IMG/VR virus record: IMGVR_UViG_3300013125_000682
Coordinates: 1-31,945 of that record
From: a virus
Reading direction: 5' to 3' (one strand)
DNA length: 31,945 bases
The position numbers and the translations under genes are program-made. The notes below the pieces were generated by a model. The model was not told where the DNA came from. It saw nothing but the letters and a program-made list of their open reading frames with translations, and searched no databases. Numbering within the stretch: the stretch's first letter is position 1; every line of letters begins with the position of its first letter. This document shows positions 21,863-31,945 of this stretch, piece after piece.

Positions 21863-22669
21863 CTATGCCTCCGCTGCAACGGCAGCCGCTGAGACGTCTG
21901 CCGCGGCCGTGGACCTAATCGTATGCAATGCGGCCCGTCCGTTCGATCCCGTACGCAACGCCCGGTATTCCCGAAGCGTCACCGTCTGGATGTTATTGTT
22001 CTCGGCCAGGCGTTCCATGGCCCGGACCTGATCCACCACGGTTCGCAGCGAGAAGTTCCCTCCATCCTCGAATACGGCTTTGCAGACGTCGCGCTCGACC
22101 GGCACCTCGCACCGGGCCTTGATCAGCGCAGCCACATCCTCTTCAGTGTTGTCGCCCGCGGTGATTATGGCGTCCGTGTTGATGCGATTGAAAAACGAGT
22201 GAAACCGTTTGAGGAGGCTCTTAAGACCGAGCTCACCAAATAGCAGAATGGCCGATTGTGTAAGATCGTGGATGTTTTTGAGGATGCGGACCATGTCCTT
22301 TGATTCCGCGACCACATCGGCCTCATCGATCAGGATCATGGCAGGATGGTCCCGCAAGCAGCGTTCGAGCTCATCGAACAGGGCATCCTTGCGGTATGAC
22401 TGAGTTGCACCGCCAACCGCGGCGTTCAGGTCCTTGAGCATGCTGGTCGGCGTCCAGATGCCCTTTGCCATGACCGCGACGGTCCGGACCTGGCCCTGCT
22501 TGCGGCTCATTGCATCGTAATGGCGCATCCAACGGGTCTTGCCCTTGCCGGGGCTGCCCTGAATGAACCCGATCCCCATCACTTCCTTGTCCGTGAACCG
22601 CTGTTCAAGCACTGCGGCAGCCCGTGCAAACCGGTTCACATGCCCTGTTGACACAAATACATTTTTCAC
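21863..22669 (-). CDS. B: MuB-type transposition ATPase
   Basis: The 268-residue protein starts at GTG 22669, which overlaps the transposase stop, with GGAGAA upstream. A Walker A motif (GSPGKGKT, residues about 38-45) and a Walker B motif (MILIDEAD) are clear, with a sensor-like stretch (SAILLFGELGLKSLLKRFHS) after them. It is the AAA+ ATPase that selects target DNA and stimulates the transposase. A short C-terminal helical tail replaces the longer tail of Mu B (312 residues). No repeats are present inside the gene. Confidence 0.9.
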   Translation of the reverse strand: MKNVFVSTGHVNRFARAAAVLEQRFTDKEVMGIGFIQGSPGKGKTRWMRHYDAMSRKQGQVRTVAVMAKGIWTPTSMLKDLNAAVGGATQSYRKDALFDELERCLRDHPAMILIDEADVVAESKDMVRILKNIHDLTQSAILLFGELGLKSLLKRFHSFFNRINTDAIITAGDNTEEDVAALIKARCEVPVERDVCKAVFEDGGNFSLRTVVDQVRAMERLAENNNIQTVTLREYRALRTGSNGRAALHTIRSTAAADVSAAAVAAEA

Positions 22670-25050
22670 GTATTCTCCTCCTGTAGACTTTCTTCGAATT
22701 GCTCGGGCGCGATTTCAGTCAGCCAGACTCGATCGCGCTCGGGCATAGACTCCATCGTCATCCACGCATGCATCTGCCATTCACGAATAGTCCTTCGCAG
22801 GAATGCCACCTCTCGATCCGTCAGTTTGCGCCGCCGTTGCTCCACCCTGAGCAGCTCGAATATCGTGATCGGTTCGGTTACCAGGGTCAGGTCCACTTCC
22901 TCAGGCTCCGGCAGCCGCAATTTGACCACCTTGGGATTGTCCGGGGTGTCCCCGAAGATCCCGGTCTCGGCAGGCTGGAAAGCCTGCCCCACATTGGGGG
23001 GGGTTTCATCGTGGGGCAGGCTTTCCAGCCTGCCTTCTTCCGTCGCCCGTCCTGCATCCACGGCCTCGAAACATGCATTGATAAATGGATTGTCCTTGAT
23101 CGGATCGCCGACCGGCAGATTAGTAATCGTGTGGGACAGGCTTTCCAGCCTGTCGTCCCTGCCGGCAATGATCCGCTGGAGTTCCTCGCCCACCGGATCG
23201 CCGAAGCCTTTAGCCATTGCTTCGAGGGCCTTGGCCCGCTCCCGGACGATCTTGTTGGCCCGTTTTTTGGCCGCGATCTTCTCGCCGATTGTGATGCCCG
23301 AGATGGCCATGTCACGAGCCGTGCATATGAACGATCTGTCGTCTGGGTCGAAACAAAACAGCCTGCCGGCATCGTTCAGATCCACCACGACGACGATCTT
23401 GCGGCCTACCCAGTCCACCAGGCTGCCGGGATCGGTCCCGGCCGTGGCCGGATCGTCCCAATAGTGGCCGTTGTCGTAGCGGATGCCATTCGTGCTTACC
23501 TCGCGGTGCTCCCTGGGTGAAAGGGCCAGGGCCAACACCGCAGGATCGTCGATCCGCCTGGGCCGATGCGTTACCGATGCGCGTTTGGCGTTCGGCGGCA
23601 TATTCAGCTCGCTGTGACGGCGCTGGTGATACCGATTCTCAGTCCATTTGTTGATGATCTTCTGGAGCTCCGCGGGGCTGAGGCCGATCTCAACGATCTG
23701 GCCTCGTTTCATGAGCCGATCTGCGAAGGATTTGCGGTTCTCGATGGCCTTGCGTTCAGCCACGTTATGGCCCACGTAGCCGGAGAGCAGCGGGAATAGG
23801 CCGTGCAAAAGCGTCCGAAACATGCGTTCAATGTGCGGTTTGGCTTCTGGTGTGAACGGCGGGAGCACTTCGATGGCGCATTCCAGGCCCGTCAGGGCCT
23901 CATTAATGTGCCGCGACGCGTAGTCCTGGCCATTATCGCGGACGAGGTGCTCGGGAATGCCCCATTCCGTGCAGACTGCCCAGAGCAGGCCCGCAATGGC
24001 CCATGCATTGGATGTCGGCGACACCACAAACCGGGCGCATCGCGAGAAAACGTCGATCAGGCCGCAGATGTTGTATCGGCGGCCGTCCGAGCACTTCACA
24101 TCGCCCGGAGTGGAATCCACTTCCACATAGTGCAGGAAACGCTCGGCCCTTTCCGAACGATTGCCCAGGGCTACCTGGTATCGGCTTCGATACTCGTCTG
24201 GATTGTTGATCAAGCAATAGGTGCGGGGATCGCGTTCCCTCTCGCGGCGCAGAAATTGTCGGACCGTGGTCTCACATACGCATGAACCGTTAAATTTCGC
24301 CTGCAAGAGGCCATGCAGATGCACCGGCGATAAATCGGGCTTTGTGGCCATGAGACTGACCAGGAATTTCTGCTGCTCAGGCAGGAGGATTGTCCCGCCC
24401 CGTTTCCATTGCCCGTTGCGGCTGATAAGACCTGCAATGCCTTCCGCCTTGAATTTCCGTTCCCATTCGTATAACTGTGTCCGTGAGATGCGCTTCACCC
24501 GGTCGTAGAGCGCGGGGTCGATGCCGGACGCCTGACGGCTGTTGTAGAGCGCCGCGAATTGGTCGGTGGCTGCTCGTCTTCCGCGCTGCTGTAGGGGCGC
24601 ATGGCGTGCGCCCTCCGGAGGGCGACCACCGGTCGCCCCTACCGTAGCGCCGGCGTCCCGCCGGTATCTTTCAAGGGCCTTCAGGATTTCCGCTCTATGC
24701 GTGGCCCAGTCCCGTTGCCATTGCTCGGCCGCGCCCCATTGTTTCGCGCATCGTGCGATTTTCTCCTTGTCCCAGGAGATCGGTATGCCGTCTGCGAGCT
24801 CCGCAGGGAGTTCGCCCAAATGAACCCTGACCCTCCGCTGCACCTCTATAGGTAATGTTCTGAGAGGGAAGAGTTTCTGTTGCCCACCACGAACCGCAAC
24901 CTCTTGAAATGGCCAGGATTCCTTGGCCGCTCGCCTAGAAAGAGTCCCCTTATCAATGGCCAGTATTTCGACGAGTTCACCGAATGGGATCATCCTGGAT
25001 GATTGCAACGCTTTCTCATTGTCCGGTTCAGTAGTGCAGCCTGATATCAT
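22666..25050 (-). CDS. A: MuA-type DDE transposase
   Basis: From ATG 25050 the protein has 794 residues; ATG 24993 (MIPFGELVEILA) is an alternative. N-terminal DNA-binding modules are followed by an HTH (RISRTQLYEWERKF) and an RNase H-like core. The proposed catalytic triad is Asp312 (VDSTPGD), Asp372 (VRDNGQDY) and Glu408 (AKPHIERMF). A Mu_transpos_C-like beta domain follows, then a helical C-terminus that contacts the B partner in Mu. B and A repeats encode residues about 129-155 (YRRDAGATVGATGGRPPE), between the end-binding region and the HTH. C units (GRLESLPH, VGQAFQPAETG) lie in the C-terminal linker. All insertions avoid the core. Confidence 0.93.
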   Translation of the reverse strand: MISGCTTEPDNEKALQSSRMIPFGELVEILAIDKGTLSRRAAKESWPFQEVAVRGGQQKLFPLRTLPIEVQRRVRVHLGELPAELADGIPISWDKEKIARCAKQWGAAEQWQRDWATHRAEILKALERYRRDAGATVGATGGRPPEGARHAPLQQRGRRAATDQFAALYNSRQASGIDPALYDRVKRISRTQLYEWERKFKAEGIAGLISRNGQWKRGGTILLPEQQKFLVSLMATKPDLSPVHLHGLLQAKFNGSCVCETTVRQFLRRERERDPRTYCLINNPDEYRSRYQVALGNRSERAERFLHYVEVDSTPGDVKCSDGRRYNICGLIDVFSRCARFVVSPTSNAWAIAGLLWAVCTEWGIPEHLVRDNGQDYASRHINEALTGLECAIEVLPPFTPEAKPHIERMFRTLLHGLFPLLSGYVGHNVAERKAIENRKSFADRLMKRGQIVEIGLSPAELQKIINKWTENRYHQRRHSELNMPPNAKRASVTHRPRRIDDPAVLALALSPREHREVSTNGIRYDNGHYWDDPATAGTDPGSLVDWVGRKIVVVVDLNDAGRLFCFDPDDRSFICTARDMAISGITIGEKIAAKKRANKIVRERAKALEAMAKGFGDPVGEELQRIIAGRDDRLESLSHTITNLPVGDPIKDNPFINACFEAVDAGRATEEGRLESLPHDETPPNVGQAFQPAETGIFGDTPDNPKVVKLRLPEPEEVDLTLVTEPITIFELLRVEQRRRKLTDREVAFLRRTIREWQMHAWMTMESMPERDRVWLTEIAPEQFEESLQEENT

Positions 25051-25142
25051 TTGATTGTCGTCTCCACTTTCGCTTTTCTTTCGTACAACACTTTATGCAA
25101 CGCTTTCCGGTTCAAAGTGTTGCAACCTTGTCCGGTTCAGTG
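25019..25142. promoter_or_regulatory. Three transposase-end-like sites upstream of the transposase gene
   Basis: TTGTCCGGTTCAGT (25019-25032), TTTCCGGTTCAAAG (25105-25118) and TTGTCCGGTTCAGTG (25128-25142) all have the same orientation; each is preceded by GCAAC-type sequence. They match the sites near the right end at 31.68-31.83 kb. They may be sites for transposase autoregulation or a second end-like array. Confidence 0.6.
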
Positions 25143-25154
25143 CCGCTTCTTTTC

Positions 25155-25200
25155 CCGTAGCGCCGGCGTCCCGCCGGTAATGCGACCGGCAAGATGCCGG
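25155..25200. repeat. Two family B units
   Basis: CGTAGCGCCGGCGTCCCGCC and the mirrored GACCGGCAAGATGCCGG lie next to each other upstream of the transposase region. Confidence 0.8.
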
Positions 25201-25218
25201 CACGCTACGAATGCGCCC

Positions 25219-26358
25219 CTACATCGCAGCGATGGCATCCCGCGGCATGGTTTCCGGCATTGATGGGTCGTGCCTTATCGGCAAATCCTGAAGCCTGGGG
25301 GCCCAGCGGCCGCAGCTCCGGCACAGTTTCATCTTCTCCCAGGCCTTGTGCGGATCTGTGCCCGGCGCGCGCCACCTGGCCTGCCATTCCAAACAGGATT
25401 TCAAGGATATTTGCGGGATGTTCTCCCGCAGGCACGGATGCCACCCCTCCGGAAGGTCGGCGGCTTCATCCGTTGCCTCTGTAGGGGCGCATGGCATGCG
25501 CCCTTCTTCCGGGCGGCCGCCGGCCGCCCCTACGTCCTCCCCCTCGCCTTCCAGGTAAGGGCCGGGGCGAGGGTCTTCCTCTTCGATTTCCGTAGCGCCG
25601 GCATCTTGCCGGTATTCTTCGTCTTCGGGATCTTCATCTTCGATGGGCTCGGCAGAAACTACCGGCGGGACGCCGGCGCTACGGGGCCGGTCAGCAGCCG
25701 TGGGCTTCCGGTTTCGTCTTCCGCGTGGCGAACACGGCGGCGATATTCCCGCTTCTCTGGCCCATAGAAAGATCGTCCATCTGGCAGGAATGCGGCCTCC
25801 GGCCTTGGTTTCCGATTCAAGCCGCCGAATGGCCGCTGAAACGTCCAGACCCTTCCCGAGCAATTCCAGGGTGCGATTCTTCACCCCTTCGGGGAGTCTC
25901 TTGAAGCAATCCGTGTAGTTGCGCTTCCGTTTTTCTTGCGGCTTCCTCCATTCATGGAACCAGGCGCAGACGGTGGAAACATGCACCGCGGACTTCCCGA
26001 ATTCTGCGCACAATGCCCTGTGAACCGCACTGGGCCGTAATTTTTCTTGAAACAGGGCCTCCGCCCGTGCCTTTATAGGCAAATTTGCCGCCCTCACCCT
26101 CCCATCCCTTCTCGGAGGAAGAGGGCAATCTGTGGTAGGGGCGCATGGCGTGCGCCCTTCTTCCGGGCGACCGCCGGTCGCCCCTACGTCTTCTCCCTCG
26201 CCCCTTGGGAGAGGGCCGGGGTGAGGGGAGGCCTCTCTACCCTGCTCTGCGGTATCGCCCAGAAATTCTCTCAGGGCCGAATCGCCTATAACCTTTGCCG
26301 CTTCCAGCCGTATCCGTTGCAGTTCCAGCCATTCCTGGCCGGTCAATTCCCGTCGCAT
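25219..26358 (-). CDS. Early DNA-binding protein with many repeat insertions
   Basis: Starting at ATG 26358 (with GGAGGGG upstream), the protein has 379 residues. Two HTH-like parts are visible: AVHRALCAEFGKSAVHVSTV (about 120-140) and a helical half ending RLESETKAGGRIP. The C-terminus has a CRSCGRW Cys pair. Repeats encode the segments between: D and A (SPHPGPLPRGEGED, VGATGGRPEEGRTP) near 48-75, B units (RSAGVPPVVS, EYRQDAGAT), D (RPGPYLEGEGED) and A (VGAAGGRPEEGRMP) near 225-285. The final residues (AIAAM) reach an A-type remnant. It may be an early regulator; no family was named. Confidence 0.6.
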   Translation of the reverse strand: MRRELTGQEWLELQRIRLEAAKVIGDSALREFLGDTAEQGREASPHPGPLPRGEGEDVGATGGRPEEGRTPCAPTTDCPLPPRRDGRVRAANLPIKARAEALFQEKLRPSAVHRALCAEFGKSAVHVSTVCAWFHEWRKPQEKRKRNYTDCFKRLPEGVKNRTLELLGKGLDVSAAIRRLESETKAGGRIPARWTIFLWAREAGISPPCSPRGRRNRKPTAADRPRSAGVPPVVSAEPIEDEDPEDEEYRQDAGATEIEEEDPRPGPYLEGEGEDVGAAGGRPEEGRMPCAPTEATDEAADLPEGWHPCLRENIPQISLKSCLEWQARWRAPGTDPHKAWEKMKLCRSCGRWAPRLQDLPIRHDPSMPETMPRDAIAAM

Positions 26359-26369
26359 CTTCCCCTCCT

Positions 26370-26924
26370 TCACCGGCCCCGGCCGGATAGCATCTTGCTC
26401 AGTTGCCGTTTGATGGCAGCGCCTTCCTTCAGGTGCTGTTCGAGCTTCCCGACAAGGAGCTCCGCCCGTTCATTCGCAGAAATGACCGTCGCGCCGCGTC
26501 TGGAAGCCAGCACATCGAGCGGAGTCAGGTTGTCGGTCGCAACGATGATCCCGAGGAGCAGCCAGGTGGGCATGCGGCATTCATGCGGTTTGGAAAGATG
26601 ATTGTTGAAGACGTGAATGGATGTGGGCCGTGAGCTTTCCGAGCCATCAGATCCCTCAGCATCGTCGGATACTGAGTAATATTCATTGATCCTTTCCAGG
26701 ACTTCCTCTCTACTCAACCCGGAATCTCGGATGGCCTGCTTGCAAGCCGCAGCCAATTCGACGTAAAGTTCCGCCTTACTTTCTTTCACCGGTTCATCTG
26801 TGGGCAATTGAGCCGGGGCCTGCGCACGTTCCGCTATGGCCTTTGTGTATTCGCAGAACTGATCGATCTGCTGGCAGAAGTCGATTTCGAGCTGATTCGG
26901 ATCAGGCACTCTCCTCGGGCTCAT
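26370..26924 (-). CDS. Early phage protein of unknown function
   Basis: Starting at ATG 26924, which overlaps the upstream stop, the protein has 184 residues. It begins MSPRRVPDPNQLEIDF and continues with a helical stretch (AELYVELAAACKQAIRDSGL) that could be HTH-like (LSREEVLERINEYY). Later segments include IHVFNNHLSKPHECRMPTWL, a region ending NLTPLDVLA and a helical C-terminus. Part of the family layout recalls uncharacterised proteins placed near the transposase in Mu-like elements. No repeat lies inside. Confidence 0.6.
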   Translation of the reverse strand: MSPRRVPDPNQLEIDFCQQIDQFCEYTKAIAERAQAPAQLPTDEPVKESKAELYVELAAACKQAIRDSGLSREEVLERINEYYSVSDDAEGSDGSESSRPTSIHVFNNHLSKPHECRMPTWLLLGIIVATDNLTPLDVLASRRGATVISANERAELLVGKLEQHLKEGAAIKRQLSKMLSGRGR

Positions 26925-27721
26925 CGGGCGGCCCTCGCTTCCCGGCATTGAGCCTTGTGGAGCGCAGCTCTGACCGCGGCGTTTTCCTTGCGTGACAGGA
27001 ATAACGGGCAACCCCGGCAGGCCCGGAGCGACGGAGCGATCATCTCGCTATCCCGCGCCCGAGCGCCAAGCGCCCCGGCCTTGATGGTGTGCTCGAACGG
27101 CCCGCCGACCTGACGTGCCAGGCATGCAATAGCTGAGAGCCTGGTCACGCCTTCGCACTGACATGACAAGCCGACATCATCCCGGTTCAACCGCTGCTGA
27201 AACTTCTCCGGAAGGTCCGGCCCGATTGCCATCAGCCGCCTGGTCGTTGGAAACGGGGCAAACGTGGAATGTCGTACCGGGGAGATGCCAGACGAAGCAC
27301 TCGCCGTGGGATCGAGGCCATATCGTGCATCGCGGGGCACGATCAATATGGTCTTCTCGCCGTTGCTGTCGTTTTCGTGGCATCTGGCCGCTCCCTTACT
27401 GACAATTGTTGCCCTCACCCCTCCCTCTCCCTCGGGGAGAGGGTTGGGGTGAGGGTCTTCCTGCTCTTCCTCTTTCCCCTCGCCCTCCGGGAGAGGGCTT
27501 TTCGCCTTGCCCCCTCGCCCTTTGGGAGAGGGTTGGGGTGAGGGGCCTTCCCGTCTTGCCAGGCGTGCGATCGCTCCGAAGGACGGTATCGGCAGGTCGA
27601 GGATGCGCTGGATCTCATCCTGGATGGCTGTGAAATCGCATCGGTGTTCGATCAATTCGAGCGCAAGGGCCTTGGCCGCGGGATACAGCTCCCAATAGTC
27701 GGATGCGCTGGAGGCTCTCAT
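26921..27721 (-). CDS. Cys-rich early protein with three family D insertions
   Basis: The 266-residue protein starts at ATG 27721, with GGAGG upstream, and overlaps the stop of the upstream gene. The first 56 residues are helical (LALELIEHRCDFTAIQDEIQ). Residues about 57-108 come from three family D units in tandem (SPQPSPKGRGG, KSPLPEGEGK and HPNPLPEGEGGV). The C-terminal half has several Cys (CQCEG, CLARQ, CRGCPLF, CREARAAR), perhaps a metal-binding fold. Function unknown. Confidence 0.6.
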   Translation of the reverse strand: MRASSASDYWELYPAAKALALELIEHRCDFTAIQDEIQRILDLPIPSFGAIARLARREGPSPQPSPKGRGGKAKSPLPEGEGKEEEQEDPHPNPLPEGEGGVRATIVSKGAARCHENDSNGEKTILIVPRDARYGLDPTASASSGISPVRHSTFAPFPTTRRLMAIGPDLPEKFQQRLNRDDVGLSCQCEGVTRLSAIACLARQVGGPFEHTIKAGALGARARDSEMIAPSLRACRGCPLFLSRKENAAVRAALHKAQCREARAAR

Positions 27722-28242
27722 GACGCCGCCTCCAATTCCTCAACCTTGGACCGGAAGAGTTCCTCGCCCATGTGGAATTCGATCTCTTCCGTGGCCAGAT
27801 CCCGCGGCCGGCCAGCGAATTCCCGTGGTAGGGGCGCATGGCATGCGCCCTCCGGAGGGCGACCGCCGGTCGCCCCTACAGCATCCACCCCTATCATCTC
27901 GAATGCATCCTTTGCCGCCTCGATCGCCGCCACGACCGGCAGGATGCCGGCCGCTACGTCCGAATCTTCTCCCTCTCCCGGAGGGAGAGGGCTTTCCACC
28001 AGCCGCCCCCTCGCCCCTTGGGAGAGGGATGGGGTGAGGGCCGCGTGTTCGACGCCTTCCACGGCGAGTTTATTGATGCTCCGGACCAGCCTGATCGCGT
28101 TGTTCCATCCTTGCCGGTCGAATTCATCGATGGCTCGTGCGCTGAGCCATGCAATCTCTCGGATTCGGTTATTGACCTGCTCGAAAGGCTCGAATTGAGC
28201 CTTCTCCTGGACCCTTCCCACAACAATTGCATTCGATTTCAC
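27718..28242 (-). CDS. Early protein of unknown function with D, B and A insertions
   Basis: The 174-residue protein starts at GTG 28242, with GAGGGG upstream. The N-terminal part is helical (EQVNNRIREIAWLSARAIDE). Residues about 67-90 come from D units (LTPSLSQGARGR, SPLPPGEGEDS) and about 92-100 from a B unit (AAGILPV). A family A segment (VGATGGRPPEGACHAP) lies near 125-140, and the C-terminus (EIEFHMGEELFRSKVEELEA) is native and helical. Function unknown. This is the rightmost gene to carry repeats. Confidence 0.6.
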   Translation of the reverse strand: MKSNAIVVGRVQEKAQFEPFEQVNNRIREIAWLSARAIDEFDRQGWNNAIRLVRSINKLAVEGVEHAALTPSLSQGARGRLVESPLPPGEGEDSDVAAGILPVVAAIEAAKDAFEMIGVDAVGATGGRPPEGACHAPLPREFAGRPRDLATEEIEFHMGEELFRSKVEELEAAS

Positions 28243-28253
28243 TGATACCCCCC

Positions 28254-29057
28254 TCAGCTAAATTGCCCCCGCACTACCGTGGGCCTCTTGCCCGCCGCAG
28301 CCTCTTCCCGATCTCTCATTCTTCGATGGTGCCTCCACAACCCGTTCACTTTGGGCACTCTGTGCGCCCCGAACTTCTCCGCCGCCAAGACGTGAATTGC
28401 CCGGTATGTCATCGTTTCATCCTTCAGCTGATTTTCCACAAACGCCTTGACCTCCGGGTCCTTATCCAACCTGCCGATGGGCGGCTTCACACGACGCCGA
28501 TCACCCTTCCGCGCCTGTTGTGGCTTCACCGCGGCTACTAGACCAAGGTATTCACTCATGTCGGTCACTCGGCCGTAGGTCTCTGCCATGAGCTTTTGTA
28601 GGATTGAACTTGTAGGGTCTTTCGCGAGCTCCACGCGAACGCGCAGTTCTTGCAACCTGAGCCGTTCCGGAGCTGCCAGTTCTCCGATCCAACCGCTGTC
28701 CGCCAGCGAGTAGGACCCTGTCGTCATGACTTCGTACAGCACCGTCTCAGCCCAGTCCCGGAACTGCGCGGCACGTGGCGCATCCGAGCGCATGGCGACT
28801 CTAATGATTCCCCGCTTCGAGAGAACCATGGTTTCCTGGAACCCCCCCGACGTCGCCAAAGGTACCCAATTAAGATGGGTACCTTTGTGAAGTTCTCCGC
28901 GATCACGCATTACCCTGATAAGTTCACCCACACTCTTCGGATCTGCGTATCCGAGAGCCGCTCCCAGATCCTTCATAGTGATCCAGCGGTCGCCTTCCGC
29001 GTCATAGATTCGAACTTCCGTGTCTGCGAACCGTAAGGTCGTAAGCGAACCCTTCAT
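28254..29057 (-). CDS. Bro-N antirepressor-like protein
   Basis: Starting at ATG 29057, with GGAGGG upstream, the protein has 267 residues; a longer frame to 29159 is open but lacks a good ribosome site. The N-terminal Bro-N domain has TEVRIYDAEGDRWITMKDLG, then YADPKSVGELI and SKRGIIRVAMRSDAPRAAQF. Bro-N proteins often act as phage antirepressors or DNA-binding regulators. The C-terminal half contains an HTH-like stretch (MTYRAIHVLAAEKFGAHRVP). It lies just after the Ner-like gene, where it could counter the repressor; the target is not shown. A perfect hairpin lies inside the gene at 28857-28887. No palindromic repeats of the A-F families are present. Confidence 0.8.
   Translation of the reverse strand: MKGSLTTLRFADTEVRIYDAEGDRWITMKDLGAALGYADPKSVGELIRVMRDRGELHKGTHLNWVPLATSGGFQETMVLSKRGIIRVAMRSDAPRAAQFRDWAETVLYEVMTTGSYSLADSGWIGELAAPERLRLQELRVRVELAKDPTSSILQKLMAETYGRVTDMSEYLGLVAAVKPQQARKGDRRRVKPPIGRLDKDPEVKAFVENQLKDETMTYRAIHVLAAEKFGAHRVPKVNGLWRHHRRMRDREEAAAGKRPTVVRGQFS
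28857..28887. other. Perfect intragenic inverted repeat in the antirepressor-like gene
   Basis: CAAAGGTACCCA at 28857-28868 and TGGGTACCTTTG at 28876-28887 form a 12-bp perfect stem with a 7-base loop. It lies within the Bro-N coding part and is unrelated to families A to F. It could be an operator or an RNA hairpin. Confidence 0.5.
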
Positions 29058-29155
29058 GATTTGATCCCTCCAAATTCCAAGCGATTTTTGATCTTGCTCG
29101 CAGCCCATTTCGCGCGTACACTCCAACGCGGAAACGGCCACGACCGCGCATCGCA

Positions 29156-29437
29156 TCACGCAGCCGTGGCCTCATTAGGGTTGTCGAGGTCCACCGGAAA
29201 AAACAGCTCTTCGACGGGCTTCTCAAAATAGTCCGCAATGGCACTGGCCACGCTTTCGGAAGCCCGACGCCGTCCCCCCATGACCTGGCCGATGTGGTCC
29301 CGGCAATAACCGAGGTCTTTCGCCATGCGAGTAATACTGACCCCGACTTCGGCCCGGACGACCCGCAAAGCCTTTGCCCGCGGCATCCATACGATATTGG
29401 GGGGAGCACTTTCCCGTGCTCGGGGCTTGTGCGACAT
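29156..29437 (-). CDS. Ner/Cro-like HTH regulator
   Basis: Starting at ATG 29437, with a strong AGGAGG upstream, the protein has 93 residues. Residues about 20-65 form an XRE-type HTH: LRVVRAEVGVSITRMAKDLG and CRDHIGQVMGGRR. It is divergent from the repressor and the first gene on the minus strand, the position of Mu Ner, which represses both the repressor gene and the early promoter. The sequence looks more like Cro-type XRE proteins than classic Ner. The gene is preceded by the promoter and operator at 29.47-29.54 kb. Confidence 0.82.
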   Translation of the reverse strand: MSHKPRARESAPPNIVWMPRAKALRVVRAEVGVSITRMAKDLGYCRDHIGQVMGGRRRASESVASAIADYFEKPVEELFFPVDLDNPNEATAA

Positions 29438-29467
29438 GCCCAATCCTCCTTTTTTTGCCCTCCCCTA

Positions 29468-29507
29468 ACGTCAATTCGGGGGAGGGAAATTGACCGTCTA
29501 TTGACGT
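29468..29507. promoter_or_regulatory. Operator-like half-sites between the regulator genes
   Basis: ACGTCAAT at 29468-29475 is the mirror of ATTGACGT at 29500-29507, and a related ATTGACC lies at 29489-29495. They lie around and after the start point expected for the early promoter, so repressor or Ner-like binding would block early transcription. Confidence 0.55.
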
Positions 29508-29515
29508 ATAAGGAT

Positions 29516-29544
29516 TAGATATGCTCCAAAAGGATCACTGTCAA
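29516..29544 (-). promoter_or_regulatory. Probable sigma-70 early promoter
   Basis: Read on the minus strand, TTGACA (29539-29544) and TATCTA (29516-29521) are separated by 17 bases. This is close to consensus and would drive the Ner-like gene and early operon. The operator half-sites lie just downstream. Confidence 0.65.
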
Positions 29545-29570
29545 GAGAAAAATGAGAACTGTGAGAAATT

Positions 29571-30305
29571 ATGAGCGTTCGTGAACGATTAAAATATCTT
29601 ATGGAGATTTACGAACTTGACACGGCAGCGGCAGTCTCCAGGGCTACGGGCGTCCCGGATAAAACCATTCGAGGCATTCTTAGGCGGGATGCGATAGGCC
29701 CAAAATCGGGCAGAATGATTGCCAATTCGCTCAATATCAATTACCAATGGCTGGTCGAAGGAAAGGGCCCCGTCGAAAAGCGAGGTTTCCCGAAAGTGGT
29801 GGGAGAAGAGGCGTGGCCGAGCGGGGAAGAGGCTGAGAAGGCCGAGGAAGCTGCGGCCGCGCTGCCGGTGCCGCCCTTACAACCGGTCACGCCGGAGGAG
29901 TTCGTGTACATTCCCAAGACCAAATCCCGTTTGGCAGCCGGACATGGCCTAATTCCTGACAATGAGGAATATACGGAGAGGTTTGCTTTTCGCCGGAATT
30001 GGCTGCGCAGCGTCTGCACCGGTCTGAGCAAGGTCATTCTGATGGAAGTCGATGGCGACAGCATGTATCCGACACTCCGGAGCGGGGACACCGTCCTGAT
30101 CGACGTGGGCCGCACCGAAGTGCATGGAGGCGGCATATACGCATTCAGCTCGGACGATTTCATACTGATAAAGCGCCTTGAATGGCTGGGGGGCGGGATC
30201 ATCCGCATCATTTCGGACAATGCGATCTATCCCCCCGAGGAAAAACCAGCCGATGAAATCACGATCATCGGACGCTGCATCTGGTTCGGACGCACGTTGC
30301 TATGA
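29571..30305 (+). CDS. LexA/CI-type phage repressor with S24 peptidase domain
   Basis: Starting at ATG 29571, 244 residues. The N-terminal HTH reads TAAAVSRATGVPDKTIRGIL. After a Pro-rich linker (about 85-108), a possible autocleavage Ala-Gly (SRLAAGHG) precedes a peptidase S24 domain with GDSMYPTL (Ser164) and FILIKRL (Lys201), the Ser-Lys pair that cuts the repressor when RecA is active. The gene is the only regulator on the plus strand and keeps the prophage silent by blocking the early promoter. It lacks repeats. Mu c differs, being ClpX-regulated, so this prophage is probably damage-inducible. Confidence 0.9.
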   Translation: MSVRERLKYLMEIYELDTAAAVSRATGVPDKTIRGILRRDAIGPKSGRMIANSLNINYQWLVEGKGPVEKRGFPKVVGEEAWPSGEEAEKAEEAAAALPVPPLQPVTPEEFVYIPKTKSRLAAGHGLIPDNEEYTERFAFRRNWLRSVCTGLSKVILMEVDGDSMYPTLRSGDTVLIDVGRTEVHGGGIYAFSSDDFILIKRLEWLGGGIIRIISDNAIYPPEEKPADEITIIGRCIWFGRTLL

Positions 30306-30391
30306 GATGTCTAATAATTTCCTGAAAATAGATGTTGCTGAACAGGGGTTTAGGGGAGTAGACTCAGGCAGAAGCTTTGAGGGGGTGGAAG

Positions 30392-30961
30392 ATGAGAATA
30401 ATGGCTGTTGCAGGTGTTGTTCTTTCTCTCTATTTACTTCCCTTATATACAAGAGCGGATCAATCGCTACAGGACCAATTGAGTGCGGCTGTGAAGGCGG
30501 GTGATGTCCGCAAATGCACGGAGCTGATACAGAACGGCGCCATGCTCTTTCGGGCCGATTCCGCTGGCAGGTTGCCACTTGAATACATCAAGGACGAGAG
30601 TCAGGCCAAGGAATTGATCAAGGCATTGAATGCTTTGCAGACCAGGACTTCTGCCGATAAGGCGCAGCGCGCAGACCCCATTGATCCTGAATTTGAGCGA
30701 ACCTTTATTCGCGTCCTCAACCGAGATTGCTTCGCTGCAGCTTCGCAAGAACTATACGGGAAGATGGCTCAAATGGCGCTGGCCAAGGACTTCGCGGCGT
30801 TTGCCGAAATGATTAGGCAGGGTGCTGGTGTATCGGTGAAGAAAGGCACGGAAGTCGTCAGAAGCGGTGCAGCCGGCGATTGGGGTTGTATTCGTATCCG
30901 CATCCGGGGAACAACACAGGATCTATGGATAAATGATGAATGTCTTAGCCGGAAGCGTTAG
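30392..30961 (+). CDS. Exported ankyrin-like protein 1 (cargo gene)
   Basis: From ATG 30392, with GGGGGTGG upstream, 189 residues. A signal peptide (MRIMAVAGVVLSLYLLPLYT) is followed by an ankyrin-like unit (QLSAAVKAGDVRKCTELIQN, GRLPLEYIKDESQA). The rest is a helical domain and a Cys-containing end (GDWGCIRIRIRG, CLSRKR). The gene lies between the repressor and the prophage end, a usual place for lysogenic cargo. It may be active in the host periplasm or surface. The function is unknown; the second gene downstream is similar in signal peptide and ankyrin content. Confidence 0.65.
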   Translation: MRIMAVAGVVLSLYLLPLYTRADQSLQDQLSAAVKAGDVRKCTELIQNGAMLFRADSAGRLPLEYIKDESQAKELIKALNALQTRTSADKAQRADPIDPEFERTFIRVLNRDCFAAASQELYGKMAQMALAKDFAAFAEMIRQGAGVSVKKGTEVVRSGAAGDWGCIRIRIRGTTQDLWINDECLSRKR

Positions 30962-30977
30962 ATCCTCATGGGGGTGG

Positions 30978-31658
30978 ATGATGAGGGTTCTGGCTTTGTT
31001 GGGGGGTGTTGCTCTTGTTATTCTTTCCATAGTCCCTTTATTTGTGAGCGCGGATGACTTCCGGGACCGGGCTCGAGCCATTGTTCAACAGGAAAAGCGG
31101 CGCACCTTGTCGCCCCGGGCGCCGCAAGAGCAGTCCTATCCTAAACTGATCGAGCTGTGCGATGCCTGCCATGATGGCGATCTGCCCGCTGTCAACCGGC
31201 TACTGACCCAGGGGGCTGATAGAGATGCTGAGTGTCCGATTGGGCCAGGATCGTGCCTGGTGTGCGCTGCCTTTGAGGGCCAATATCCCATTGTACTGCT
31301 GCTATTGAACAGCGGCGCCGAGGCGAATTGCCGTGACGCCGTCAGCCGGCCGATTCTCTATCATGTGGTGCGTGGTCACAGCGGATCGGGGTTGAAGGGC
31401 CGCCCGGAACTGGCTCTCAAGATAGCGGATTTGCTCATTTCCAGGGGCGCTGATGTTAATGCGGCCGATGATATGGGCATAACGCCCCTAATGGAGGCTG
31501 CGGCTCGCGGAGATTTGGAGATGGCTCTCTTTCTCATTAAGAAGGGCGCAGATATTAATGCAAGGACTCGATACAAGGGGACGACAGCACTCTCCTTCGC
31601 ACGCCAGAAGGGCCATCGGCATCTTCTTCGAGCCCTGGTCGATCTGGGCGCCAAATAG
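30978..31658 (+). CDS. Exported ankyrin-repeat protein 2 (cargo gene)
   Basis: From ATG 30978 (or the next ATG 30981), with GGGGGTGG upstream, about 226 residues. A signal peptide (RVLALLGGVALVILSIVPLF) is followed by a short Arg/Lys-rich stretch and at least four ankyrin repeats. Among them are LIELCDACHDGDLPAVNRLL, SGAEANCRDAVSRPILYHVV, KIADLLISRGADVNAADDMG, TPLMEAAARGDLEMALFLIK and KGADINARTRYKGTTALSFA. Ankyrin repeats bind other proteins. Its neighbour is a similar gene, and the probable prophage end lies just downstream. Possible roles are protection of the host or a host-interaction function; this is inference. Confidence 0.75.
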   Translation: MMRVLALLGGVALVILSIVPLFVSADDFRDRARAIVQQEKRRTLSPRAPQEQSYPKLIELCDACHDGDLPAVNRLLTQGADRDAECPIGPGSCLVCAAFEGQYPIVLLLLNSGAEANCRDAVSRPILYHVVRGHSGSGLKGRPELALKIADLLISRGADVNAADDMGITPLMEAAARGDLEMALFLIKKGADINARTRYKGTTALSFARQKGHRHLLRALVDLGAK

Positions 31659-31676
31659 CAGAAAAGCATTTCGCTC

Positions 31677-31828
31677 TTGTCCGGTTCAGTGGCGCAGGGG
31701 ATGCCCGAAAAACCCAATGATTAGATTTTGTGGCCGGTTCTAGTCCAATCTTGCCCCACTCTCCGGATTTCCTAATGCCATCATGCGCTTATCCCCAGAA
31801 TGTTGCAGTTTTTTCTGTCCGGTTCTAT
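31677..31828. promoter_or_regulatory. Transposase-binding-like array at the probable prophage end
   Basis: TTGTCCGGTTCAGTG at 31677-31691, GGCCGGTTCTAGT at 31732-31744 and TCTGTCCGGTTCTAT at 31815-31828 have the same orientation. Mu ends carry three transposase sites each. The outermost site is followed by possible CA ends at 31842-31849. Confidence 0.6.
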
Positions 31829-31850
31829 CCTGTGCTTTACACACACTCAC

Positions 31851-31945
31851 TCTGTGGACTACGCCAACAAAGACCTGGAAAGGGACATAGACGCCCTGAA
31901 CAGGCCTCTTTATCGAGCGGATACGCAAGCAAGCTGGGACCCCTC
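31851..31945 (+). other. Possible flanking host coding frame (partial)
   Basis: The frame beginning near TCT GTG GAC TAC stays open to the right edge and gives SVDYANKDLERDIDALNR and further residues. It may be a host gene interrupted at the prophage end. It is too short to name. Confidence 0.25.

Follow-up and report, generated by a model that had tools for sequence, protein, structure and literature searches.

The window analysed here is the whole of the IMG/VR virus record IMGVR_UViG_3300013125_000682 (31,945 bp). It holds the left, early region of a Mu-like transposable phage and, next to it, late genes as far as the portal, and it stops before the right end of the phage. Two arrays of short, similarly oriented sites are found in it: an outer array (L1-L3, 31,677-31,828) on the repressor side, and an inner array (I1-I3, 25,019-25,141) that occupies and overlaps a 168-bp gap at the start of the gene for the MuA-like transposase. 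The outer array is best explained as the left attachment end of the phage, and the inner one may serve as a set of transposase-binding sites through which the enzyme would limit its own expression.

Two arrays of end-type sites

The sites, the gap and the two transposition genes are as follows.

31813..31828, minus strand: site L1, ATAGAACCGGACAGAA, placed by its GAACCGG core
31728..31743, minus strand: site L2, CTAGAACCGGCCACAA, placed by its GAACCGG core
31675..31690, minus strand: site L3, ACTGAACCGGACAAGA, placed by the 14-mer and the GAACCGG core
25126..25141, minus strand: site I1, ACTGAACCGGACAAGG, placed by the 14-mer and the GAACCGG core
25101..25116, minus strand: site I2, TTTGAACCGGAAAGCG, weaker, placed by its GAACCGG core and lying within the inverted repeat CAACACTTT/AAAGTGTTG
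25017..25032, minus strand: site I3, ACTGAACCGGACAATG, placed by the 14-mer and the GAACCGG core, overlapping the first codons of the transposase open reading frame (ORF) opened at 25050
25051..25218, minus strand: gap of 168 bp containing I1 and I2, the only gap in the early operon longer than 11 nt
22666..25050, minus strand: MuA-like DDE transposase (phrog_310 3e-83, Mu-transpos_C 5e-12)
21863..22669, minus strand: MuB-like AAA ATPase (AAA_22 1e-12, phrog_296 6e-25)

The exact 14-mer TTGTCCGGTTCAGT occurs at 25019, 25128 and 31677, always on the plus strand, with a copy carrying three mismatches at 31815, and the sequence GAACCGGMCA is found five times in the window (0.18 expected by chance), each time on the minus strand and inside one of the two arrays. 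Clusters of three GAACCGG within 160 bp, of which the window holds two, appeared in none of 300 order-2 Markov shuffles. When the sites are aligned on GAACCGG on the minus strand, the outer cores lie at 31825 (L1), 31740 (L2) and 31687 (L3), with a spacing of 85 + 53, and the inner cores at 25138 (I1), 25113 (I2) and 25029 (I3), with a spacing of 25 + 84. I1 and L3 are identical over 15 bp (CACTGAACCGGACAA), and a matrix built from L1-L3 alone gives I1 and I3 as the two top-scoring other sites of the whole record, I1 being the best; the sixth site, I2 (GAACCGGAAA), is the weakest of the six. The motif scan and the shuffles thus agree with the initial annotation, which had described two same-oriented arrays of three sites at 25.02-25.14 kb and 31.68-31.83 kb. 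The likeness of the sites that it had assumed needs qualifying in two respects: I2 is weaker, and L1 and L2 are further from the 14-mer than L3, I1 and I3. Within the 31.9-kb record the full motif is limited to the arrays, contrary to the possibility raised there that it might be common elsewhere.

The left end and the order of the genes

Several features support the identification of the outer array as a Mu-type left attachment end, as the initial annotation had read it. Its three direct transposase-type sites stand close to a terminal TG, which begins 13 nt outside the 13-mer of L1 (TGTAAAGCACAGG), a spacing that is equal at the first site of three relatives (L229, L236 and L278) and is not shown by four others (L240, L125, L133 and L138). 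Relatives with other motifs share the same design, with three direct repeats that lie mostly in the first few hundred bases of their viral contigs, and the left end of the D3112 group has three direct repeats at 10, 93 and 124 bp in addition to a terminal TGT (PMC4378225). Given the anatomy common to these relatives, a MuA-like transposase would bind and cut at L1-L3. The position of the terminus is uncertain by a few bp because TG repeats there, and the DNA that follows it, about 104 bp, appears not to belong to the phage.

31839..31841, minus strand: predicted left terminus, 5'-TGT, terminal base 31841, with the TG spaced from L1 as in relatives
31842..31945, no strand assigned: 104 bp of DNA beyond the phage, outside the predicted TGT, a putative host flank in which one frame is open throughout (HTHSVDYANKDLERDIDALNRPLYRADTQASWDP)

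The remaining genes are those of a Mu-like transposable phage (Caudoviricetes): a DDE transposase of the MuA family is followed by a MuB-like ATPase, a repressor and a Ner-type gene lie between the left end and the transposase, and head and packaging genes are located downstream on the minus strand (terminase large subunit 2e-96, portal 1e-37, Mu Gp27 2e-10).

30933..31658, plus strand: ankyrin-repeat cargo gene between the repressor and the left end (Pfam Ank 3e-22)
29571..30305, plus strand: CI-like S24 repressor (Peptidase_S24 6e-20, phrog_4 4e-42)
29516..29544, minus strand: candidate early promoter TTGACA-N17-TATCTA, a match to the consensus alone and the sole match in the window (0.06 expected)
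29156..29443, minus strand: helix-turn-helix (HTH) regulator in the Ner/Cro position, first gene of the early operon (HTH_31 1e-7)
28254..29159, minus strand: BRO-N antirepressor (Bro-N 7e-10; phrog anti-repressor 4e-17)
25219..28242, minus strand: four more early ORFs in the interval from the regulators to the transposase (gaps of 11, -4, -91 and -4 nt)

Between 30377 and 31658 of the window, two plus-strand ORFs, one of them with ankyrin repeats, separate the repressor from the left end. A left part with cargo near the left end is an ordinary Mu-like layout; because these cargo genes intervene, the region between the repressor and the Ner-type gene, which is the expected place of an enhancer, is found some 2.3 kb away from the left terminus. 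As for the transposase itself, its family profile, when compared with solved structures, matches the Ialpha domain of MuA (1tns), the Mu C repressor and TnsB, and members of the family possess an N-terminal domain of the enhancer type, together with an HTH segment where the end-binding domain would sit. The homologues align from residue 20, and the alternative start at 24993 fits them better than the one at 25050.

The inner array and the control of the transposase

From 29443 to 21026 each early ORF overlaps its neighbour or closely adjoins it (gaps of -4, 11, -4, -91 and -4 nt, and of -4 and 3 nt after the transposase), with the single exception of the 168 bp that separate the transposase ORF from the stop at 25219. 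The ORF starts used for these lengths are mechanical; if translation starts at 24993, I3 is also located upstream of the gene. Neither I1 nor I3 has the look of a decaying relic; both sites are intact.

The comparison with related phages is constrained by distance. Searches of viral_contigs with the transposase or the MuB protein returned no close relatives, profile scans of viral and genome contigs placed the nearest ones at 25-43% identity in the transposase, and phylum and order searches gave nothing closer than these. No end-type sites were found at the transposase gene in Mu, D3112, MuM16-1 or any of the roughly eight distant relatives that served for comparison and whose left-end arrays could be recognised. 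Where those left-end arrays are clear, the best matrix score near the transposase equals background. A scan of the first 4.5 kb of Mu recovers L1-L3 at its end and nothing near gene A, and in D3112 and MuM16-1, whose left-end sites were fitted from weak alignment, nothing was detected near the transposase genes. The inner array is thus better supported as unusual than as unique, since the comparison set is small and distant.

Other features are shared with Mu: as in attL (L1-L3) and the enhancer region of that phage, there are three transposase sites near the terminus, an order of end, repressor, Ner-type gene, transposase and MuB-like gene, and a domain of the Ialpha type. The internal sites of Mu, however, are enhancer and operator sequences of another motif, whereas here it is the end-type sites that recur at the transposase start. 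The left ends of D3112-like phages (PaMx73 group, PMC4378225) share the small genes between Ner and the transposase, but a comparable array before the transposase was not found in D3112. A further parallel is provided by Tn7-type ends, in which TnsB sites adjoin the tns promoter and such arrays of transposase sites could give autoregulation; the Tn7 sites are the transposon end itself, whereas those considered here are internal and have no terminus.

The reading that we favour, with a probability of about one half, develops the autoregulation that the initial annotation had mentioned as a possibility for the inner array. It is that the array consists of intact transposase-binding sites that act in cis and give negative autoregulation of transposase expression, the binding, its effect and its direction all being deduced from the sequence. 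It is supported by the motif common to both arrays and found nowhere else in the record, and by the coincidence of the array with the only operon gap longer than 11 nt. The end sites of Mu are recognised by the Ibeta and Igamma subdomains of MuA and the enhancer by Ialpha (PMC3362531), so end-type sites would recruit the transposase through its end-binding module. As it accumulates, the transposase would bind I1-I3 by that domain and would block transcription that starts at the early promoter, some 4.4 kb upstream, or at an unrecognised local promoter, limiting both its own synthesis and that of the downstream MuB-like gene; negative feedback would be the simplest consequence of binding at such a position. 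A tentative extension of this reading, for which we would put the chances slightly below even, is that the end-binding sites double as an operator in the early operon, the level of the transposase being set by the same contact that builds the transpososome.

Some observations weigh against autoregulation. No sigma-70 promoter was recognised in the 168-bp gap by consensus scan, which means that repression must affect read-through transcription or an atypical promoter and that a roadblock is easier to reconcile with this result than classical promoter repression. The weak site I2 is surrounded by a perfect 9-bp inverted repeat at 25086-25122 (CAACACTTT/AAAGTGTTG), GAAAGCGTTGCA repeats lie within or near the gap at 25004 and 25096, and these elements may be operators of another regulator that shares the space. 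In addition, Mu, D3112, MuM16-1 and the relatives do without such inner sites.

Alternatively, neither array would consist of transposase sites, and the two would be operators for a different DNA-binding protein of the phage or the host; in favour of this are the other repeats in the same gap and the array of a different motif at the transposase start of the locus L219. This is rather improbable: the outer array matches a transposase end in position, number, orientation and terminal TG spacing, as in relatives with other motifs, and there are no copies of GAACCGGMCA in the repressor-Ner region of the window. It is somewhat easier to believe, although still unlikely, that the inner array aids transpososome assembly or immunity, either as an internal loading site like the Mu enhancer or by strengthening the clearance of the MuB-like protein from the phage's own DNA. 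Assembly in Mu is helped by transposase bound at the internal enhancer (PMC3362531), and the expected enhancer place is here displaced from the left end by the cargo. In Mu, nevertheless, a different domain (Ialpha) recognises the enhancer, which has a motif unlike that of the ends and is made of distinct sites between the repressor and Ner. The inner array has the motif of the ends and is situated about 4.4 kb further inside; that it fits the operon gap exactly where the transposase begins suggests gene control instead.

Two more proposals treat the inner array as an end, past or present. The initial annotation had suggested an alternative left end that, with the right end, mobilises a shorter element carrying the transposase and the late genes and lacking the repressor and the cargo. 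The inner array does have three sites with the motif and orientation of L1-L3, but it lacks the terminal TG of a Mu-type end: no TG is located 11-15 nt outside I1, I2 or I3, and none lies within 45 nt outside I1, although Mu-like ends conserve TGT (PMC4378225). This disfavours the proposal, with the proviso that the TG test excludes a canonical TG end only, given that KS10 reportedly has no terminal TG...CA (PMC2628397). The spacing (25 + 84) also differs from that of the left end (85 + 53), and a search of relatives for elements ending at the 25.1 kb array found none among the distant ones available, an absence that is weak evidence because close relatives are lacking. The alternative end is thus very improbable, and the array more likely throttles transposase production than marks a second, shorter mobile element. 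Slightly less improbable is a remnant of an older left end, outside which a block of repressor, cargo and early genes was later added with a new end. The remnant would explain three sites immediately before the transposase, oriented as in a left end; it is opposed by the intact sites, by the absence of a terminal TG and of similarity beyond the cores, by a composition that shows no break at 25.2 kb, and by a succession of repressor, Ner-type gene, small genes and transposase that is the ordinary one. Small genes likewise stand between the Ner-type gene and the transposase in the Rhodobacter phage RC1 and in D3112.

The limitation of transposase after induction of transposable phages is usually explained by the repressor and Ner. 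If negative autoregulation is true, an intact set of end-type sites where the transposase gene begins would close a direct feedback loop, and end sites could lie inside an element without acting as ends, which bears on how the transposase distinguishes the true end (sites and terminal TG) from internal sites to which it is bound.

Other repeats and motif matches

RNA folding of the inner gap is strong (z -3.6), but it was given no weight because much of the stem falls in a dispersed palindromic repeat (25157-25205); an Rfam search gave no match. In L219, a locus of a relative, four direct copies of TTAGAAAGGGACA and one inverted copy (1379-1507) extend from the last part of a small HTH gene into the transposase start; TTAGAAAGGGACA was not found elsewhere in that locus, where a different array occupies the equivalent gene position.

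The exact motif scan of viral_contigs returned 111 stretches, a number near chance, none of them with a related transposase. In paired-motif scans, most matches with three copies were coding repeats (period 3) or low complexity. The GAACCGGACA repeats in L310, L378 and L393 were rejected as apparently coding sequence in viral records with no Mu-type transposase; they are located at L310:9605-9695, L378:1861-1950 and L393:955-1035, are partly palindromic and not confined to a single frame, and are possibly origin repeats in phage replication genes. The TCCCCGACTCGAA array in L144, L145 and L256 looks, by eye, like tRNA genes, and the arrays of L151 and L254 resemble operators of the repressor region.

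Finally, two dispersed palindromic repeats are present in the window, with 12 copies of GTAGGGGCGCATGGCRTGCGCCC and 14 of GTAGCGCCGGCRTCCCGCCGGTA (≤3 mismatches; none expected by chance). One pair lies in frame inside the transposase gene, at residues ~131-158, with little counterpart in the homologues. Many of the copies fall within ORFs. Positions of the two repeats include 3169, 10006, 14320, 18335, 21498, 24591, 25481, 26135 and 27828, as well as 4232, 24644, 25157 and 25660.
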